A DNA stretch of 64,000 bases from Haloterrigena sp. KLK7 (lineage in GTDB: Archaea; Halobacteriota; Halobacteria; Halobacteriales; Natrialbaceae): the NCBI RefSeq assembly GCF_037914945.1, contig NZ_CP149788.1, positions 1-64,000 on the forward strand, read 5' to 3'. This document shows, in pieces, positions 35,954 through 44,101 of this stretch. The position numbers and the translations under genes were made by a program. The number at the start of each line of letters is the position of its first letter. Position 1 is the first letter of the stretch. Under the pieces are notes generated by a model. That model did no database searches. It was given only the letters and a program-made list of their open reading frames with translations, and was not told the DNA's origin.

Positions 35954-36898
35954 TCACATCGCCCGTCCGCGGTTCGTGACGTAGATTCCGAGTAGCACGA
36001 CGGCGCCGCCGAGAACCGTCACGGCTTCCGGAACCTCACCGAGCAACGCGAGCGCGAGGATCGTGCTCCCGACGGGCTCGCCCAGTAACGAGACGCTCAC
36101 GACGCTCGACTCGACGTACTTCAGCGCCCAGTTGATGACCGTGTGGCCGAACATGCCCGGGAACAGGGCCATCGCGAGGAAGAGGACCCATTCCGTCTGC
36201 GGATAGCCGAGGAGCGGCGCATCGGTCCCGACGGCGAGGAAGCCGAGGGCGGCGGCACACACGGCGTAGACGACGAACGTGTAGGCGAACAGCGGAAGCC
36301 GCTGGCGGAGTGAGCGGCCCGAAAGCGTATAGACGGCACCGACGACCGCGCCGGCGAGCGCGAGGGCGTTGCCGTAGAGTTGGGTCGCGCTCCCCGCGAA
36401 CGCGGTCCCGAGCGCCGCGACGATGTCGCCGCCGCCGAGTAGCGGGTCGACGACGAGCGGCCCCACCGACATACAGAACGCGCCCGCGAGCGCGACGGCC
36501 ATCCCGCCGATCATCCGCGGGGTGAGTCGCTCGTCGAGGAGCGCCGCCGCGGCGACGCCGACGAATATCGGCTGGGTAGTGATCAGCGTCACCGACGCGG
36601 CCACCGTGGTCAACTCCAGACTCTCGAAAAAGCTCGCGAAGTGGGCGGCCAGCGCCAGTCCCGAGACGACCGCGAAGACGAGGTCGCGCCTCGAGATCGC
36701 TCGGAGGGCGTCGGCGTCGCGGAGCGCGAACGGCGCGACGGCGACCGCCATGAACAGCACGCGGTAGAACGCCTTCACGACGCTCGGCGCACCGCTCCAC
36801 CGGACGAGGATCGCACTCGTACTGATGGCGGCGATCGCGACGGCGACGCCGATCATCGGGTCAACCCGCTCTTCCAGCGATGTCGTCCACTGATTCAT
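35954..36898 (-). CDS. EamA/DMT family transporter
   Basis: A 314-residue membrane protein from the ATG at 36898 (another ATG at 36910). Ten hydrophobic helices in two EamA repeats are visible: the first includes AISTSAILVRWSGAPSVVKA and TTQPIFVGVAAAALLDERLT, the second AVVGAVYTLSGRSLRQ and VSVSLLGEPVGSTILALALL. The repeats end with the characteristic late P-x-x-x motif of drug/metabolite exporters. Substrate unknown; probably amino acid or metabolite efflux. Confidence 0.9.
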   Translation of the reverse strand: MNQWTTSLEERVDPMIGVAVAIAAISTSAILVRWSGAPSVVKAFYRVLFMAVAVAPFALRDADALRAISRRDLVFAVVSGLALAAHFASFFESLELTTVAASVTLITTQPIFVGVAAAALLDERLTPRMIGGMAVALAGAFCMSVGPLVVDPLLGGGDIVAALGTAFAGSATQLYGNALALAGAVVGAVYTLSGRSLRQRLPLFAYTFVVYAVCAAALGFLAVGTDAPLLGYPQTEWVLFLAMALFPGMFGHTVINWALKYVESSVVSVSLLGEPVGSTILALALLGEVPEAVTVLGGAVVLLGIYVTNRGRAM

Positions 36899-36910
36899 AC
36901 CGGGATTCAA

Positions 36911-37182: not shown

Positions 37183-38772
37183 ATGTCGCCGTCCCCGCCG
37201 ACCGAGACCGACGGGGAGAGACTCGGTGACCGCTCGTTGGCGGGCGTTCCGATCGAACTGTATCCGATCGCACTCCTCGCTGCTGCGCTCCGGCTGTTTC
37301 GGCTGGAGTCCGAGAGTTACTGGGTCGACGAAGTCGTCTCGGTGACGATCGTCACGTCGAACACGCCGTCCGAACTCCTGATCAGCGTCCCGGGGAACGA
37401 TCCCCATCCGCCGTTCTACTATCTCCTCCTGTCCGGCTGGTCGGCGCTCTTCGGAACGAGCGAACTGGCCACGCGACTGCTGTCGGCCCTCGTCGGAATC
37501 GCCACCGTCGTCGTCCTCTACGGGGTCGGTCGACGGCTCTTCGACAGGGAAGTCGGAGCGATCGCGGCGGTGCTCGTCGCCGTCTCACCGTTCCACGTCT
37601 GGTACTCCCAGGAGGTGCGAATGTACAATCTGCTCGCGCTGCTGACCGCGCTCTCGCTCTACTGGTTCGTGCGAATACAGGCGGAGAGATCGACCGACGA
37701 GAGCGGCGTTCGGGACGATATCGGGTACGTCGTCTCCACGATCCTCCTCGGGTACACGCACGTCTTCGGGCTGTTCGCGATACTCGCCCAGAACGCGTAC
37801 GTCTTCTCTCGGCCGCTGGTCCGGACCGTTCCCCGGTCGCGACTGACACTCCGCCGCTGGATCGCCCTCGAGGGAATAACCGCATTGCTCCTCCTCCCGT
37901 GGTTGGTGCGGTTGCTCCGCCGGACGGTGGCGGCCGGCGGCGGCGATGCGGGCAACGTCTCCTGGATTCCGCTGCCGACCGCCGAGACCGTCAGAGAGAC
38001 GTTCGCCGCGTACCTCGGCGGCCACCTGTTCGGCGAATCGTACCCGCTGTTCGTCTCGCTCGTCGTCGCGGGCTGTCTGGTGCTCGCGCTCTCGAGCGCC
38101 CGAGACGCGGTGACGGCGATCGGCCGGGGTGCGACGACAGAGGCCGACCGGGGCGTGACGGAGACCGACCGGGAGAATCCATCGATAAACGCCGTGTACG
38201 TGGTCCTCCTCTGGTTCGTCGTGCCGGTGCTCGTTCCGATCGCCCTCTCGCACGTCGTCACGCCGATCTTCGTGGACCGCTACTCGATCGGGGCGTCGCT
38301 GGCGTTTTTCCTCCTGATCGCGGTCGGCGTGCGGACGCTCTCCCGCCCGTCGCTTCGGTACGTCGTCGTCGGGGTGCTCCTCGTCGGCCTCGTCGCGCCC
38401 CTCCCAACGTACTATCAGGACGACCAGAAAGAGCAGTGGCGGGCGGCCGCCGCCGACGTCGAGTCGAACGTCGACGGCGACGACGTCGTCCTCGTGAGCA
38501 GACCGTTCACCGAGCGGACGTTCGGCTACTACTTCGACGCGGCGGACGTGCCCACGGTTCGGATCCCGCCCGACGCGTCGGCCGACGAAATCAGGTCGTC
38601 CGTCGACGGACGCGACGACGTCTGGATCGTGCTCTCGTACACCGATTCGTCGACGAATCAGCGGATCGTCGACGCCGTGGCGAGCCGCGACGACTACCGC
38701 GGCCCCGTCGAGGTGAACCGGTACAACGGCATCGCCGTGGTCCAGCTCGAGCGAACATCGAACGGCGGCTAG
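37183..38772 (+). CDS. GT39-like membrane glycosyltransferase
   Basis: A 529-residue GT-C-fold protein from the ATG at 37183. After a short hydrophilic start comes FRLESESYWVDEVVSVTIVT, the D-E motif in the first extracytoplasmic loop that acts as catalytic/metal site in GT39/PMT enzymes, then NDPHPPFYYLLLSGWSALFG. About ten transmembrane helices follow, and a soluble C-terminal domain of about 110 residues ends LERTSNGG. Such enzymes use polyprenyl-phosphate sugars to glycosylate proteins or lipids outside the membrane. It converges on the mannosyltransferase at 38832. Confidence 0.88.
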   Translation: MSPSPPTETDGERLGDRSLAGVPIELYPIALLAAALRLFRLESESYWVDEVVSVTIVTSNTPSELLISVPGNDPHPPFYYLLLSGWSALFGTSELATRLLSALVGIATVVVLYGVGRRLFDREVGAIAAVLVAVSPFHVWYSQEVRMYNLLALLTALSLYWFVRIQAERSTDESGVRDDIGYVVSTILLGYTHVFGLFAILAQNAYVFSRPLVRTVPRSRLTLRRWIALEGITALLLLPWLVRLLRRTVAAGGGDAGNVSWIPLPTAETVRETFAAYLGGHLFGESYPLFVSLVVAGCLVLALSSARDAVTAIGRGATTEADRGVTETDRENPSINAVYVVLLWFVVPVLVPIALSHVVTPIFVDRYSIGASLAFFLLIAVGVRTLSRPSLRYVVVGVLLVGLVAPLPTYYQDDQKEQWRAAAADVESNVDGDDVVLVSRPFTERTFGYYFDAADVPTVRIPPDASADEIRSSVDGRDDVWIVLSYTDSSTNQRIVDAVASRDDYRGPVEVNRYNGIAVVQLERTSNGG

Positions 38773-38831
38773 ACCTGCCGCCGGCGGCCCGCTCGTCGAT
38801 CACGCTCGCTCGAGTCCGAACGCGCCGAATC

Positions 38832-40187
38832 CTAGCCGCGATCGGTTCGACTCGGCCACCCGTCGCACTGTCGCCTATCCAGTCGGTCGTCGGTCATCGC
38901 GATCCACCGCACCTCGTTCCAGCTCAGCCGGTAGTGACAGGTCTCCGGTTTCGCCTGCTCCCAGTAGATCGTCTGCATCGACGGGACGTTCCCGTCGCCC
39001 GGCGTTATCGGCAGGGACTCCCCCTCCGGCTCGGCCGCCTCCTGTCGCGTCTGGAGCGTCGACTGCGAGGCCGGTGAGCCGAAGTGCCAGGCGAGACCCG
39101 AGAGAACGAGCAGCGCGATCACCGCGACGGCGGCGACCGCCGTCCACCGGCGGACGGAACGGGACGCGTCGTCATTGCGTCGATTCGTCGTCACCGATCC
39201 TCCCACGGTCACGCGTTCTACCGCGACGGCGACGCCGAGTGCGACGAAGGCGAGCCAGAGGAACGCGTCCGTCGAACCGTCCAGATCGACGAACAGCACC
39301 TGGAAGGCGAGCAGCAAACCGCCCGCCGGAATCCACCACCGCTCTCGGACGTCGCTGACGGCGGCGCGCGCCCAGCCGTAGAGCGCGACCGGGACGAGCA
39401 GCGACCCGTAGCCGAACACTAGCAGTATCGTGTAGACGCGCTCGGCCAGGGTGTACGACGATCCGGCGGTCAGCGGGGCGACCACCGTCTGGACGACCAT
39501 GGGAACGAGCCCCTCCGTGGCCGCGAACGCGAGGACGACGGCACCGGTCACGACGCCGCCGCCCGCGATCGCCCTGAGCGCGCCCTTGGCGCCGGTTCGC
39601 TGATACGCTATCCCGACGATCAGCATCGCAAAAACCGCCCCGGACTGCCACGACCCGGCGCTCAGCGCCGCGGCGGTGCCGGCGAGGAACGGCCGGTCGC
39701 GGAGCGCCAGTGCGAGCGCGAGGACGCCGAAAAACAGCGCATAGAACTGTGCCCGGACGCCTTCCGGGGAGAGGAGGAAGAGCTCCGGCACGACGAGCAT
39801 CGCGAGACCGGCGGCGATCGCCGCTGCGTCGTCCCCGGTCACGTGGCGGGCGATCCAGGCGACGAGCAGGACGCTCGCGGCTGCGATGAGCGTCGTGAGC
39901 GTCGCTCCGAGGCCATGCAGCACGAGCATGTTCCCGCCCGAGAGGGCGGCGAGCACGGCCGCGATTCCGAACGGAACGGGCGGGTTCACGTCCCAGACGT
40001 CGACGTACGGAACGCCGCCCTTGAGGACGTACCAGCCCGTGTGCTGGAAGAACGCCGGGTCGGTCGCGATCGTCGGCCAGTCGACGAGCAGGTGCCTACC
40101 GAACCCGGCGACGAACAGGACGACAACGATCGGTCCGAGGACGGCGAGCCACGTACTGCGAGACAGCAACCGTGACCGAGGGGGCAT
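38832..40187 (-). CDS. DolP-mannose mannosyltransferase-like GT-C protein
   Basis: A 451-residue membrane protein with about ten helices. The first loop reads DWPTIATDPAFFQHTGWYVL, then GGVPYVDVWDVNPPVPFGIA: the Y-x-D-x-W-D-x-x-P motif of haloarchaeal DolP-mannose mannosyltransferases such as AglS, with candidate catalytic acids. A soluble C-terminal tail contains CHYRLSWNEVRWIAM. It would transfer mannose from dolichol phosphate to an N-glycan or another acceptor on the outer face. It starts 2 nt beyond the end of the epimerase gene, so the two are one operon. Confidence 0.85.
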   Translation of the reverse strand: MPPRSRLLSRSTWLAVLGPIVVVLFVAGFGRHLLVDWPTIATDPAFFQHTGWYVLKGGVPYVDVWDVNPPVPFGIAAVLAALSGGNMLVLHGLGATLTTLIAAASVLLVAWIARHVTGDDAAAIAAGLAMLVVPELFLLSPEGVRAQFYALFFGVLALALALRDRPFLAGTAAALSAGSWQSGAVFAMLIVGIAYQRTGAKGALRAIAGGGVVTGAVVLAFAATEGLVPMVVQTVVAPLTAGSSYTLAERVYTILLVFGYGSLLVPVALYGWARAAVSDVRERWWIPAGGLLLAFQVLFVDLDGSTDAFLWLAFVALGVAVAVERVTVGGSVTTNRRNDDASRSVRRWTAVAAVAVIALLVLSGLAWHFGSPASQSTLQTRQEAAEPEGESLPITPGDGNVPSMQTIYWEQAKPETCHYRLSWNEVRWIAMTDDRLDRRQCDGWPSRTDRG

Positions 40188-40188
40188 C

Positions 40189-41280
40189 TCAGATCCGCTG
40201 TGAGATCTTCTTCGCGACGGCGAGGGCGCCCTGGTCCCACGCGACGCGGTGGTCGAGGCCGCTCTCGTCGGTCTCCTCGTCGGCCTCGTAGTTCTCGAGG
40301 TACCACTCGTAGGTCTCCACGAGCGCCTCCCGGTTGGAGTACTCGGGTTCCCAGCCGAGGTCCGTCAGCTTCTCGACGGAGACGTAGGAGTCCTCGTGGG
40401 CAGTCTCGTAGACCCACGGATACAGCGGGGAGAGGTTCAGTTCGTCCAGCACGCGGAGGACCGCGACCGTGAGAAAGGCGGGCGTCCCGATGGTGCGTTT
40501 CCCCGTCCCCGCGTAGTCGATCGGGGCCTGGAAGTCCTCCTTCATCGTGCCGAACTCGTCGGTCCCGACGTTGAACGTGTCGTTGACCGCGTCCTCGTCT
40601 TCGGTGAGCAGCAGTTCGATGGCGGTGACGAGGTCGCGGACGTGCAACAGCTGGTAGCGGTTGTTCCCCCAGCCGACGAGCGGGACGTTGGCGCCGTCCT
40701 CGATCCAGTCGAACAGCACCTGAAACACGCCGAGTCGTTTCGGGCCGATGAACGTCTTCGGGCGAACGATCGGGACGCACATCCCCATGCGGCGGAAGTC
40801 CTGACAGACCTTCTCGGCCTCGATCTTGGCCTCGCCGTATGCGCCGACTCCGTCTAGCGGCGACTCCTCGGTGATGGGATGCGTGTCGTGGGTCCCGTAC
40901 ACCGCCGTCGAGGAGACGTAACAGATCCGCTCGACGTCGGCGTCGTTCGCCGCCCAGAGCACGTTCCGCGTTCCGTCGATGGTCGTCTCTCGGATACGGT
41001 CGTCGTCCCACAGTGGGAGCGCGGCCGCCGTGTGCACCACCGCGGTGGCATCGCTCTCCTCGAGTGCATCGGCGACGGACGCCTCGCTTCGAACGTCGCC
41101 TTCGACGAAGTCGATTCCGTCCGTATCGTCTTCCGGCTCGAACGGCTTGAGATCGAACGCGGTGACGTCCCATCCCTGATCACGGAAGTACTGGCACGCG
41201 TGCAGGCCGAGGAATCCAGTCCCCCCGGTGACGAGAAGCGAGCCGTTCGAGTCGTCGCTGGCACGCTCACTATCGCTCAT
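40189..41280 (-). CDS. NAD-dependent nucleotide-sugar epimerase/dehydratase (extended SDR)
   Basis: A 363-residue extended SDR from the ATG at 41280; an in-frame leader to 41373 is unlikely. LLVTGGTGFLGLHACQYFRD is the NAD-binding G-x-x-G-x-x-G segment, YVSSTAVYG holds the catalytic Ser/Thr, and YGEAKIEAE the Y-x3-K pair. RPKTFIGPKRLGVF and YQLLHVRDLVTAIELLL shape the substrate side. Likely substrate is a nucleotide sugar, or a lipid-linked sugar given the neighbours. The downstream mannosyltransferase starts almost on its stop. It is divergent from the UbiA-like gene at 41451. Confidence 0.9.
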   Translation of the reverse strand: MSDSERASDDSNGSLLVTGGTGFLGLHACQYFRDQGWDVTAFDLKPFEPEDDTDGIDFVEGDVRSEASVADALEESDATAVVHTAAALPLWDDDRIRETTIDGTRNVLWAANDADVERICYVSSTAVYGTHDTHPITEESPLDGVGAYGEAKIEAEKVCQDFRRMGMCVPIVRPKTFIGPKRLGVFQVLFDWIEDGANVPLVGWGNNRYQLLHVRDLVTAIELLLTEDEDAVNDTFNVGTDEFGTMKEDFQAPIDYAGTGKRTIGTPAFLTVAVLRVLDELNLSPLYPWVYETAHEDSYVSVEKLTDLGWEPEYSNREALVETYEWYLENYEADEETDESGLDHRVAWDQGALAVAKKISQRI

Positions 41281-41450
41281 CGTGATATCACGCTGAACGT
41301 CGATACGATGGGTCAATAGTGTACCGAGGTGTATCGAATCCGTACAGTCTCGAGTCGATTGAAACCGAGACATCCAGCGCGTGATATATGATGTGTGGGA
41401 GTCACAGGCAAGCCGGGACTTTTTGCCGTCATGTGAAGTCGAAGAGACAG

Positions 41451-42365
41451 ATGGCCCGCGCCTACACCGACAGGCGTCGGTTCGTGGGGACCGTCTCTGG
41501 ACTGGTAAAGGAGATGCGGCCCTGGCAGTGGTACAAGCAGGGCATCCTGCTTCTGGGGCTCGTCTTCTCCAAGAGTCTGTTCGATCCGGTCGCCGTCACG
41601 AACGTCGTCCTCGGAATCGTCGCCTTCTGTGCCGTCGCGGGCGCGACGTACATCGGCAACGATATCCTCGACGTCGAGGAGGACCGCAACCACCCGCGGA
41701 AGAAACACCGACCGATCGCCAGCGGGCAGGTGCCGGTCTCCGTGGCGGTGACGTTCGCGGCCCTGCTGTTCGTCGGCGGGCTCGGCCTCTCCTGGCACCT
41801 CGGCCCGCTGTTCCTCCTCGTCGTTAGCACGTACCTCGCACAGAACGCGCTCTACTCCGCGGTTCTGAAGGAAATCGTCATCGTTGACGTGATGGTCATC
41901 GCCATCGGATTCGTCCTGCGGGCCGTCGCCGGCGTCGTCGCCATCGACGTCTACCTGAGCCCCTGGCTCGTCGTCTGTACGTTCCTCGGGGCGCTGATGC
42001 TCGCGCTCGGCAAGCGCCGCCACGAGATGATCGTCAGCGACGATCCGGCCGCGTCGCGCGCGACCCTCGCCGAGTACACCGAGGAGACGCTCGACCAGTT
42101 GCTCGTCACCGTGCTCGCCGCGCTGGTCGTCTCCTACTCGCTCTACACGTTCTTCCGCGGCGGACTGTGGATGATGACCACGCTCCCCTTCGCCTTCTTC
42201 GCGGCCTTTCGCTACCACTTCCTCGCCCACACGCGGAATCTGGGCGGTGACCCGAAGTTCCTCTTCGGCGACCCCCCGTTTTTCGTCAACCTCGTCCTCT
42301 GGGGGCTCCTCGTCATCGCGGTCCTTTACGGGGTTCCGCCGCGACTCCTCGAGGTGATCGCGTGA
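41451..42365 (+). CDS. UbiA prenyltransferase, decaprenyl-phosphate phosphoribosyltransferase-like
   Basis: A 304-residue membrane protein from the ATG at 41451. The start EMRPWQWYKQGILLL matches the LRPxQWxKN segment of DPPR synthases. The first Asp-rich motif is NDILDVEEDRNHPRKKHRPI (70-89), the second lies in YSAVLKEIVIVDVMVIAIGF, and the family-specific MLALGKRRHEM follows. This group joins 5-phosphoribosyl diphosphate to a polyprenyl phosphate, the first committed step of lipid-linked pentose (arabinose in mycobacteria). It heads a plus-strand operon with a PHP and a flippase-like protein. Homology assignment is confident; the product in archaea is inferred. Confidence 0.88.
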   Translation: MARAYTDRRRFVGTVSGLVKEMRPWQWYKQGILLLGLVFSKSLFDPVAVTNVVLGIVAFCAVAGATYIGNDILDVEEDRNHPRKKHRPIASGQVPVSVAVTFAALLFVGGLGLSWHLGPLFLLVVSTYLAQNALYSAVLKEIVIVDVMVIAIGFVLRAVAGVVAIDVYLSPWLVVCTFLGALMLALGKRRHEMIVSDDPAASRATLAEYTEETLDQLLVTVLAALVVSYSLYTFFRGGLWMMTTLPFAFFAAFRYHFLAHTRNLGGDPKFLFGDPPFFVNLVLWGLLVIAVLYGVPPRLLEVIA

Positions 42366-42425
42366 CCGTTTCACTCCACACCGAACCGAGATGACCGTCT
42401 CACCCCGCTCCGCACCAAGCCTACC

Positions 42426-43106
42426 ATGACACGACGATACGATCTCCAGGTCCACACGAACGCCTCGCCCTGCTCGAGCACGCCCCCGGAACGCGTGGCC
42501 GAAGCGGCGGCCGACGCCGGACTCGACGGCATCGCCGTCACGGACCACGACACACTCGCCAACGTCGACGCCGTTCGGGACGCCGCGCCGGCCGATCTCG
42601 AGGTGATCGCCGGCGTCGAAGTGACGACGACCGAGGGCCACCTGCTGGCCCTCGACGTGACGGAGGCGCCGCCCCGAACGGATCCGCTGACGGTGATCGA
42701 CCGCGTCCACGAACAGGGCGGCGTCGCCGTCCTCTCGCATCCGTTCGACACGCTCCGACAGTACTACAAGACGGACCTCGAGGCTCTCGCCGATGTCGTC
42801 GACGGGATCGAAGCGATGAACTCCCGCTGCGTCCGCCGCCGGTTCAACGACCGGGCGGCGTCGTTCGCGGCCGCCCACGACCTCCCAACGACCGGCGGGA
42901 GCGACGCCCACTTCCCGATGGAGGTCGACCGCGCCTACACGGTCGTCGAGGGCGGCGGGTCGCTCGTTGACGCCGTCCGCGAGGGACGCGTGCGGCCGGG
43001 CGGTCGCGGACGCTACCTCTCGGGGCACGTCGCGACGAAACTCCACCAGTTTCGCACCGCCTCCAGTCGCGCCGTCGGGATCCTCACGTCAGGGCGATTC
43101 CCGTGA
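42426..43106 (+). CDS. PHP-domain phosphoesterase
   Basis: A 226-residue PHP protein. Metal-site motifs in order: DLQVHTNASPCS (6-17; the first His of the usual HxH is Gln8, as in PolX-type PHP domains), VTDHDTLAN (38-46), GVEVTTTEGHLLAL with Glu and His, VLSHPFD, and TGGSDAHFPMEVD near 158-170. PHP enzymes cleave phosphate esters. It lies 60 nt after the UbiA-like gene and overlaps the flippase-like gene (GTGA), so a dephosphorylation step for a lipid-linked sugar phosphate is a reasonable but unproven role. Confidence 0.87.
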   Translation: MTRRYDLQVHTNASPCSSTPPERVAEAAADAGLDGIAVTDHDTLANVDAVRDAAPADLEVIAGVEVTTTEGHLLALDVTEAPPRTDPLTVIDRVHEQGGVAVLSHPFDTLRQYYKTDLEALADVVDGIEAMNSRCVRRRFNDRAASFAAAHDLPTTGGSDAHFPMEVDRAYTVVEGGGSLVDAVREGRVRPGGRGRYLSGHVATKLHQFRTASSRAVGILTSGRFP

Positions 43107-44101
43107 CGACGAGCGGCGAGGCCGGTGGAATCGGGGGGACCGTCGTCGATCGGTGCCGGCGGGTCGTCCGCGACCACGGCGTCTGGCTGACGGCACTGCT
43201 CTCGGTCGCCGTCTTCCTCGGCCTCGCCGCCTACGCGGACGTCGGCGACGTGACGAGCGCGCTCGCCACGCTGCGCTGGCGGACGTTCGGGGCCGTCATC
43301 GGCCTGACGACCGTCGGCTACGGCTTCCGCTTCGCCAAGTGGCACTACTACCTCCGGCGCCTCGAGGTGGACGTGCCGCTCGACGCGAGCGCGATCACCT
43401 TCTTCAGCGGCCTGATGATGGTCGTCACGCCGGGGAAGGCCGGCGAGGTCTGGAAGGCGTGGTTCCTCCGGGACAAACGGGGCGTCCCCGCGAGCAAGAC
43501 CACTTCCGTCGTCGGCGCCGAGCGAATCACTGACCTGATCGCGCTCAGCGCCATGGCCGCACTCGGCCTGCTGGTCTACAGTCGCTCGTCGCTCCCGATC
43601 GCTCTCGTCCTCGGCGCCATCGGAGCCGGAATCGGCCTACTCCAGTGGCGACGGGCCTGTCTGGCGGTCCTCAGACGGCTCGAGTCGCTCCCGGTCGTCG
43701 GCGAGTACGCGACCGAACTCGAGCAGTTCTACGAGAGCGCGTACCGCCTGTTCCGGCTCCGACCACTGGTCGTCTCGACGCTGTTCAGCCTCGCGGCGTG
43801 GGGGTTAGAGGGCGTCGCGCTCTGGCTGGTACTCGACGGGTTCGGCGTCGAAGCCGGACTCGTGATCGGTCTGTTCGTCTTCGGCCTCGGATCGGTCGTC
43901 GGCGCGGTGTCGATGCTCCCCGGCGGACTCGCGGCGGCGGAGGCGTCGATGGTCGGCGTGCTGGTCACGTTCGGCTACCCCGAAGCCGTCGCGGCCGCTG
44001 CGACGGTCGTGATCCGCGTGGGGACGCTGTGGTACGCCGCGGCGCTCGGCACGGCCGTGTTTCTCACGTACAAGGCGACTCGTACGCCCCAAAAAGAGTG
44101 A
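43103..44101 (+). CDS. LPG synthase TM-region/flippase-like membrane protein (UPF0104)
   Basis: A 332-residue membrane protein starting with GTG that overlaps the PHP stop. It has about eight helices and the family markers RFAKWHYYLRRLEVDVPLD, FSGLMMVVTPGKAGEVWKAW and VGAVSMLPGGLAAAEASMVG. Members of this superfamily resemble the membrane part of MprF and are annotated as flippase-like. In this operon it may move a lipid-linked intermediate across the membrane; that is context only. Confidence 0.88.
   Translation: MTTSGEAGGIGGTVVDRCRRVVRDHGVWLTALLSVAVFLGLAAYADVGDVTSALATLRWRTFGAVIGLTTVGYGFRFAKWHYYLRRLEVDVPLDASAITFFSGLMMVVTPGKAGEVWKAWFLRDKRGVPASKTTSVVGAERITDLIALSAMAALGLLVYSRSSLPIALVLGAIGAGIGLLQWRRACLAVLRRLESLPVVGEYATELEQFYESAYRLFRLRPLVVSTLFSLAAWGLEGVALWLVLDGFGVEAGLVIGLFVFGLGSVVGAVSMLPGGLAAAEASMVGVLVTFGYPEAVAAAATVVIRVGTLWYAAALGTAVFLTYKATRTPQKE

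Follow-up and report, generated by a model that had tools for sequence, protein, structure and literature searches.

A stretch of 64,000 nucleotides from the haloarchaeon Haloterrigena sp. KLK7 (contig NZ_CP149788.1, positions 1 to 64,000; hereafter the window) carries, between positions 37,183 and 44,101, six genes that likely constitute an archaeal lipid-linked pentofuranose system, a variant of the bacterial polyprenyl-phospho-pentofuranose system. The full contig spans 396,905 bases in a genome of 4.64 Mb. A first-pass annotation of the window had described these six genes with their order and divergence, and open reading frames (ORFs) and family matches place them exactly there, with family assignments in Pfam and NCBIfam reached for all six. 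The locus is organized as follows:

37183-38772, plus strand: GT-C glycosyltransferase of the GT39/PMT_2 family, with an ATG start in an ORF open from 36991 (PMT_2 56.6 bits, PMT 35.7 bits)
38832-40187, minus strand: AglS-type GT-C transferase of family PF15971 (Mannosyl_trans4 108 bits)
40189-41280, minus strand: extended short-chain dehydrogenase/reductase, SDR (Epimerase 143.8 bits)
41281-41450, no strand: divergent SDR/UbiA intergenic region of 170 bp, presumed from its sequence to be a bidirectional promoter (the divergent order and a short gap recur in most loci)
41451-42365, plus strand: UbiA-family protein, a predicted polyprenyl-phosphate 5-phosphoribosyltransferase (PPPRS) of the decaprenyl-phosphate phosphoribosyltransferase (DPPRS) type (UbiA 105.6 bits, NF008977 249.3 bits)
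42426-43106, plus strand: PHP-family phosphoesterase (PHP 41.1 bits, PHP_C 51.2 bits)
43103-44101, plus strand: LPG_synthase_TM membrane protein of the MprF flippase type, overlapping the PHP gene by four bases (PF03706 147.7 bits, cut-off 33.4)

The UbiA protein very probably has polyprenyl-phosphate 5-phosphoribosyltransferase activity. Its score against the NCBIfam model for DPPRS (NF008977) exceeds the curated equivalog cut-off of 234, and it falls far below the cut-offs of the models for geranylgeranylglycerol-phosphate synthase, UbiA and heme O synthase. The best solved relative is the DPPRS of Mycobacterium tuberculosis (8j8j), matched at 1.9e-36 with the single sequence and at 1.7e-61 with a profile. 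Two motifs, NDxxDxxxD and KRxxE, do not vary among 19 divergent relatives from archaea and bacteria or among the 30 loci described below, comprising N69, D70, D73 and D77, and K187, R188 and E191 with the loop IV Arg/Glu pair (numbered on protein P0004, which starts without Met). The residues mutated in Citrobacter ORF15 (PMC11127046) are those of NDxxDxxxD and of the Arg/Glu pair. The DPPRS signature read by the first-pass annotation is borne out. The enzyme family itself is not new, because NCBI automatic annotation already names the Halostagnicola larsenii UbiA decaprenyl-phosphate phosphoribosyltransferase.

Conservation of the locus was assessed in a sample of 292 genomes of the haloarchaeal class by reading the surroundings of 29 additional loci, over as much as 20 kb each, together with the window (L and G numbers denote individual loci and genomes). 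A full-length UbiA relative is encoded in 28 of these genomes, and a 29th listed match (G084) is weak, at 28% identity. In all 30 haloarchaeal loci, which come from 28 genomes and five families, the UbiA, PHP and LPG_synthase_TM genes are contiguous, in the same order and on one strand. Because this core is contiguous in every locus, the arrangement is not a product of chance. Loss of clustering across haloarchaea had been named beforehand as a refuting outcome, and the clustering is strongly kept. The same three genes also lie close together in methanogen-type relatives from the same phylum (L077-L081), and in a quick tree the haloarchaeal UbiA proteins form one clade adjoining two methanogen-type UbiAs.

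In the route that we propose, UbiA would transfer ribose-5-phosphate from phosphoribosyl pyrophosphate (PRPP) onto dolichyl phosphate, after which the PHP protein would take off the 5-phosphate. The SDR would next invert a hydroxyl on the lipid-linked ribofuranose, yielding xylofuranose if it acts at C3 or arabinofuranose if it acts at C2. The LPG_synthase_TM protein would move the lipid-phospho-pentose to the outside, where a GT-C enzyme (the AglS-type protein, perhaps GT39 too) would attach the pentose to a glycan or glycoprotein of the cell surface. We infer every catalytic step, as well as dolichol as the lipid carrier, the sugar and the acceptor, from family membership, catalytic motifs, the conserved operon, co-occurrence of genes, and the replacement of parts by unrelated families.

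Such replacement is seen in L082, a locus of a methanogen-type archaeon that belongs to a different family within the phylum, where one operon encodes, in this order, a UbiA of the DPPRS type (252 bits), a fusion of a HAD phosphatase to a GtrA flippase domain, an SDR that is 54% identical to that of the window, and a GT39 protein. HAD phosphatases of this type have been proven to act on lipid-phospho-ribose-5-phosphate in Citrobacter (PMC11127046). In this operon, PHP and LPG_synthase_TM thus give way to unrelated proteins whose roles are the expected ones. Bacterial loci show comparable sets, with UbiA, GtrA, SDR and HAD as separate genes in Deferribacteraceae (L160) and with SDR, UbiA and HAD in a row in Dojkabacteria (L145).

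Structural models were examined for the two remaining proteins of the core. The model of the PHP protein, with a predicted local distance difference test (pLDDT) score of 79, matches PHP phosphoesterase structures 3e38, 7ug9, 2anu, 3e0f and the AMP-bound 2yb1, and the ligand residues His41, Glu65, His105, Asp160 and His162 are kept. The protein is a good candidate for the phosphatase that removes the 5-phosphate of lipid-phospho-ribose-5-phosphate. Sequence searches returned no solved relatives of the LPG_synthase_TM protein. The five best fold matches of its model are all MprF (E 6e-5 to 2.5e-3), which is consistent with its probable function as the flippase of the lipid-phospho-pentose. The first-pass annotation had mapped phosphoribosyl transfer, dephosphorylation, epimerization, flipping and GT-C transfer onto the genes of this locus. 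This mapping gains support from the MprF fold, from the HAD/GtrA exchange in L082, and from an AftA neighbour described below.

The GT-C enzymes are an exchangeable part of the system. All 11 Natrialbaceae loci carry an AglS-type gene (product at least 67% identical) beside the SDR gene. Outside this family, the SDR-side slot is held by GT39, PMT_2 or polytopic proteins that lack a family assignment, and the neighbours belong to PF15971, PMT_2 or AftA, or are again unassigned polytopic proteins. In a sample of 76 Natrialbaceae genomes, the AglS-type clade is present in 13, and all 13 are UbiA-positive. Nine of these were known to be UbiA-positive beforehand; the other four were chosen blind, and each proved to carry UbiA. 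Conversely, the clade is absent from all 48 genomes of the same sample known to be UbiA-negative. The AglS-type protein is treated here as a probable user of the pathway product, that is, as a proposed pentosyltransferase.

GT39 had been listed with the cluster from the beginning, and it does adjoin it in the window. Homologues flank the module in L032-L034, L045, L048, L049 and L057 as well as in the replacement operon L082, but they are missing from most loci, which makes GT39 an optional neighbour and rules it out as a member of the conserved core. It might use a lipid-phospho-sugar, a tentative assignment about which we are slightly more doubtful than confident. Immediately beyond GT39 in the window lies a gene for an EamA-family membrane protein of the drug/metabolite transporter superfamily (35954-36910). 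This superfamily includes some proposed flippases for other lipid-linked sugars.

An AftA-type transferase gene accompanies the module once. AftA is the mycobacterial transferase whose donor is decaprenyl-phospho-arabinofuranose. The AftA_N domain was detected in one of the 292 haloarchaeal genomes (G169, L060:5992-7764), with a score of 88 bits (cut-off 26.7) accompanied by an AftA_C match of 31 bits, and the protein matches the solved AftA structure 8if8 at 2.1e-18. This sole AftA_N gene adjoins a second copy of the module in G169, in which the SDR gene is in two fragments. AftA_N was not found in the window genome, and its occurrence in a single genome rules out AftA as the general haloarchaeal glycosyltransferase.

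The SDR retains the motifs TGGTGFLG (TGxxGxxG) and YGEAK (YxxxK). Close orthologs, defined by an E-value of at most 1e-70 and nearly all 69-95% identical, occur in 27 of the 292 haloarchaeal genomes, and all 27 are UbiA-positive (Fisher p ~3e-37, a value inflated by common descent). The gene is divergently adjacent to UbiA in most loci, with exceptions in L045, where it is about 5 kb away, and in L060, where it is broken. A more distant SDR (37-41% identity) is present in two loci, L051 and L058. Bacterial members of the family, which was also placed by a quick tree, are 50-56% identical, and a DPPRS-type UbiA is encoded in 33 of 36 bacterial genomes that carry this SDR. Among Chloroflexota, UbiA is found in 22 of 23 genomes with the SDR and in 67 of 118 without it (p ~2.5e-4 without the centre genome, descent not being corrected for). 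This one-way dependence of the SDR on UbiA is as expected of an enzyme that acts on the UbiA product, and the SDR is reasonably likely to be an epimerase of the lipid-linked sugar. In bacteria, the SDR gene is also often followed by a gene of the deoxyhypusine synthase family (PF01916, 328 bits; L115:9097-10137 and 20 other loci).

The identity of the pentose can be narrowed to some extent. No DprE1-type gene (ALO-domain, PF04030) was detected in 10 module-bearing genomes, although the Corynebacterium glutamicum control was positive. With DprE1 absent from these 10 genomes, arabinose production through a copy of DprE1/DprE2 is rejected, and a xylose- or ribose-type sugar is somewhat likelier than arabinose. 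The window SDR resembles in its motifs Citrobacter ORF13, a ribose-to-xylose epimerase (PMC11127046). Xylofuranose is our first guess because DprE1 is missing and the lone extended SDR follows this precedent; ribofuranose would come next and arabinofuranose third. The first-pass suggestion of a ribose- or arabinose-type sugar is supported as regards a pentose, by L082, AftA and the co-occurrence of SDR with UbiA, but arabinose is not favoured. More broadly, we lean towards a version of the system shared by haloarchaea and methanogen-type relatives, in which a PHP phosphatase and an MprF-type flippase would serve dolichyl-phospho-xylofuranose, or another ribose epimer, and the GT-C enzyme would be exchangeable, including the recruited AftA-type protein.

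Several observations weigh against the pentofuranose proposal. In the module PHP proteins of haloarchaea, the HxH metal motif has lost its first His to Gln8 (window 42447-42455); the methanogen-type PHPs have His at this position. Phosphatase activity is therefore not assured. The structural model of the LPG_synthase_TM protein is of low confidence (pLDDT 59.6). The AglS family is named for mannose transfer, and AglS of Haloferax is a dolichyl phosphate (DolP)-mannose mannosyltransferase (PMC3871713). In four methanogen-type loci (L077, L078, L080 and L081), the operon is present and no SDR gene is nearby. UbiA lies within 8 kb at just 6 of 75 bacterial SDR loci, so that an exclusive partnership of the bacterial SDR with UbiA is ruled out despite the high genome-level co-occurrence; because most bacterial relatives are not near UbiA, they may have another substrate. 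Finally, we found no report in the literature of a pentose on haloarchaeal dolichol phosphate, and searching the literature for haloarchaeal glycans with pentoses yielded no usable information.

The Haloferax precedent, together with the differing identity of the GT-C protein between loci, would suit an N-glycan pathway based on DolP-mannose that includes the AglS-type and GT39 proteins and is only a neighbour of a separate UbiA-PHP-flippase module. We consider this unlikely, given how closely the Natrialbaceae AglS clade tracks UbiA and given that no gene for DolP-mannose synthase is seen between the module genes. Another explanation is that UbiA makes lipid-phospho-ribose-5-phosphate that is used as plain ribofuranose, and that the SDR has a different substrate, such as a nucleotide sugar that feeds into the same glycan. 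The operons that lack a nearby SDR fit this scheme, as do the direct use of ribofuranose by Citrobacter O1 (PMC11127046) and the presence of nucleotide-sugar epimerases among the general relatives of the SDR. However, the haloarchaeal SDR is strictly tied to UbiA, the SDR gene is inside the UbiA operon in L082, and in Chloroflexota the SDR goes with UbiA and not vice versa, which makes this explanation improbable. A third alternative makes UbiA a conventional prenyltransferase, active for instance in the synthesis of ether lipids or quinones, and the cluster a lipid-modifying one unrelated to pentose. This would accord with the large size of the UbiA superfamily and with the lipid-flippase fold of MprF, but is very hard to reconcile with the model scores, the DPPRS motifs, and the AftA and HAD neighbours at related loci.

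With the pentofuranose system retained as the preferred interpretation, the closest characterized counterpart is the three-component system of Citrobacter youngae O1/O2, which comprises PPPRS-PRP, a MATE flippase and the GT-C enzyme GT136, along with the SDR ORF13 (Kelly et al. 2024; PMC11127046). Both systems have a PRPP-type UbiA, a dedicated phosphatase, an extended SDR (TGxxGxxG, YxxxK), a flippase and a GT-C enzyme, and both have a variable glycosyltransferase and the same logic whereby an epimerase changes the pentose. They differ in that the window has PHP rather than the HAD phosphatase PRP (HAD being present in the archaeal L082), LPG_synthase_TM rather than MATE, and apparently AglS, GT39 or another GT-C enzyme rather than GT136. 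Furthermore, the archaeal genes are separate and divergently arranged, and the lipid carrier is presumably archaeal.

The parallel drawn earlier with the mycobacterial decaprenyl-phospho-arabinose pathway (Rv3806c, Rv3807c, DprE1/DprE2, Rv3789, AftA/Emb) stands insofar as UbiA is of the DPPRS family and the roles map, and one haloarchaeal module copy adjoins an AftA-family GT-C, but it is not the nearest precedent. The module has an extended SDR instead of DprE1/DprE2, PHP instead of PAP2, and LPG_synthase_TM instead of an SMR-type exporter. As in the AglD/AglR/AglS branch of Haloferax volcanii (PMC3871713), a single sugar would be carried by a dolichol phosphate of its own, turned to the outside and attached there by an AglS-type GT-C. 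Unlike in that branch, UbiA and not the glycosyltransferase AglD is predicted to load the sugar, with PRPP as the source, and a phosphatase and an SDR are additional.

A number of loci depart from the common arrangement. One (L085:8957-10569, G066) carries the module PHP (60% identity) and flippase genes without UbiA or SDR, near sulfatase-like and glycosyltransferase-like genes, and is probably a remnant of the module. A chimeric locus (L045, G263), whose coordinates equal those of the Natronococcus sp. CG52 plasmid NZ_CP099392.1, has UbiA, PHP and flippase of the type of another family (~60%) beside an SDR (86%) and AglS (67%) of the Natrialbaceae type, and an SDR fragment adjoins its UbiA gene, which suggests cassette exchange. 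L058 and L051 hold divergent versions of the module, with a UbiA of 45-49% identity and a pair of distinct SDRs (37-41% and 24-27%), hinting at a second sugar variant. Two plasmid-borne module copies, L196 (18263-19567 on Halostagnicola larsenii plasmid NZ_CP007056.1) and L197 (18282-20603), have sulfotransferase-type genes beside them, and one of the two has an adenylyl-sulfate kinase gene as well. From these neighbours, the pentose-bearing glycan may be sulfated.

Lipid-linked pentofuranoses are known in mycobacteria, where their synthesis is a drug target route, and in some Gram-negative bacteria. We found no description of such a pathway in Archaea in the open-access literature. The novelty is in the conservation of the module and in the evidence for its individual components; the UbiA family was already known. 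Because the cassette is present in about one-tenth of the sampled haloarchaea, is partly on plasmids and has its GT-C swapped, the module has the look of a system for surface variation, akin to serotype conversion in bacteria. If the proposal is correct, archaeal surface glycans would contain pentoses whose origin can be tested gene by gene, and the PHP enzyme and LPG_synthase_TM protein would gain a role in lipid-linked pentose chemistry. It would also illustrate how a pathway can be reassembled when its phosphatase, flippase and transferase are drawn from unrelated families.

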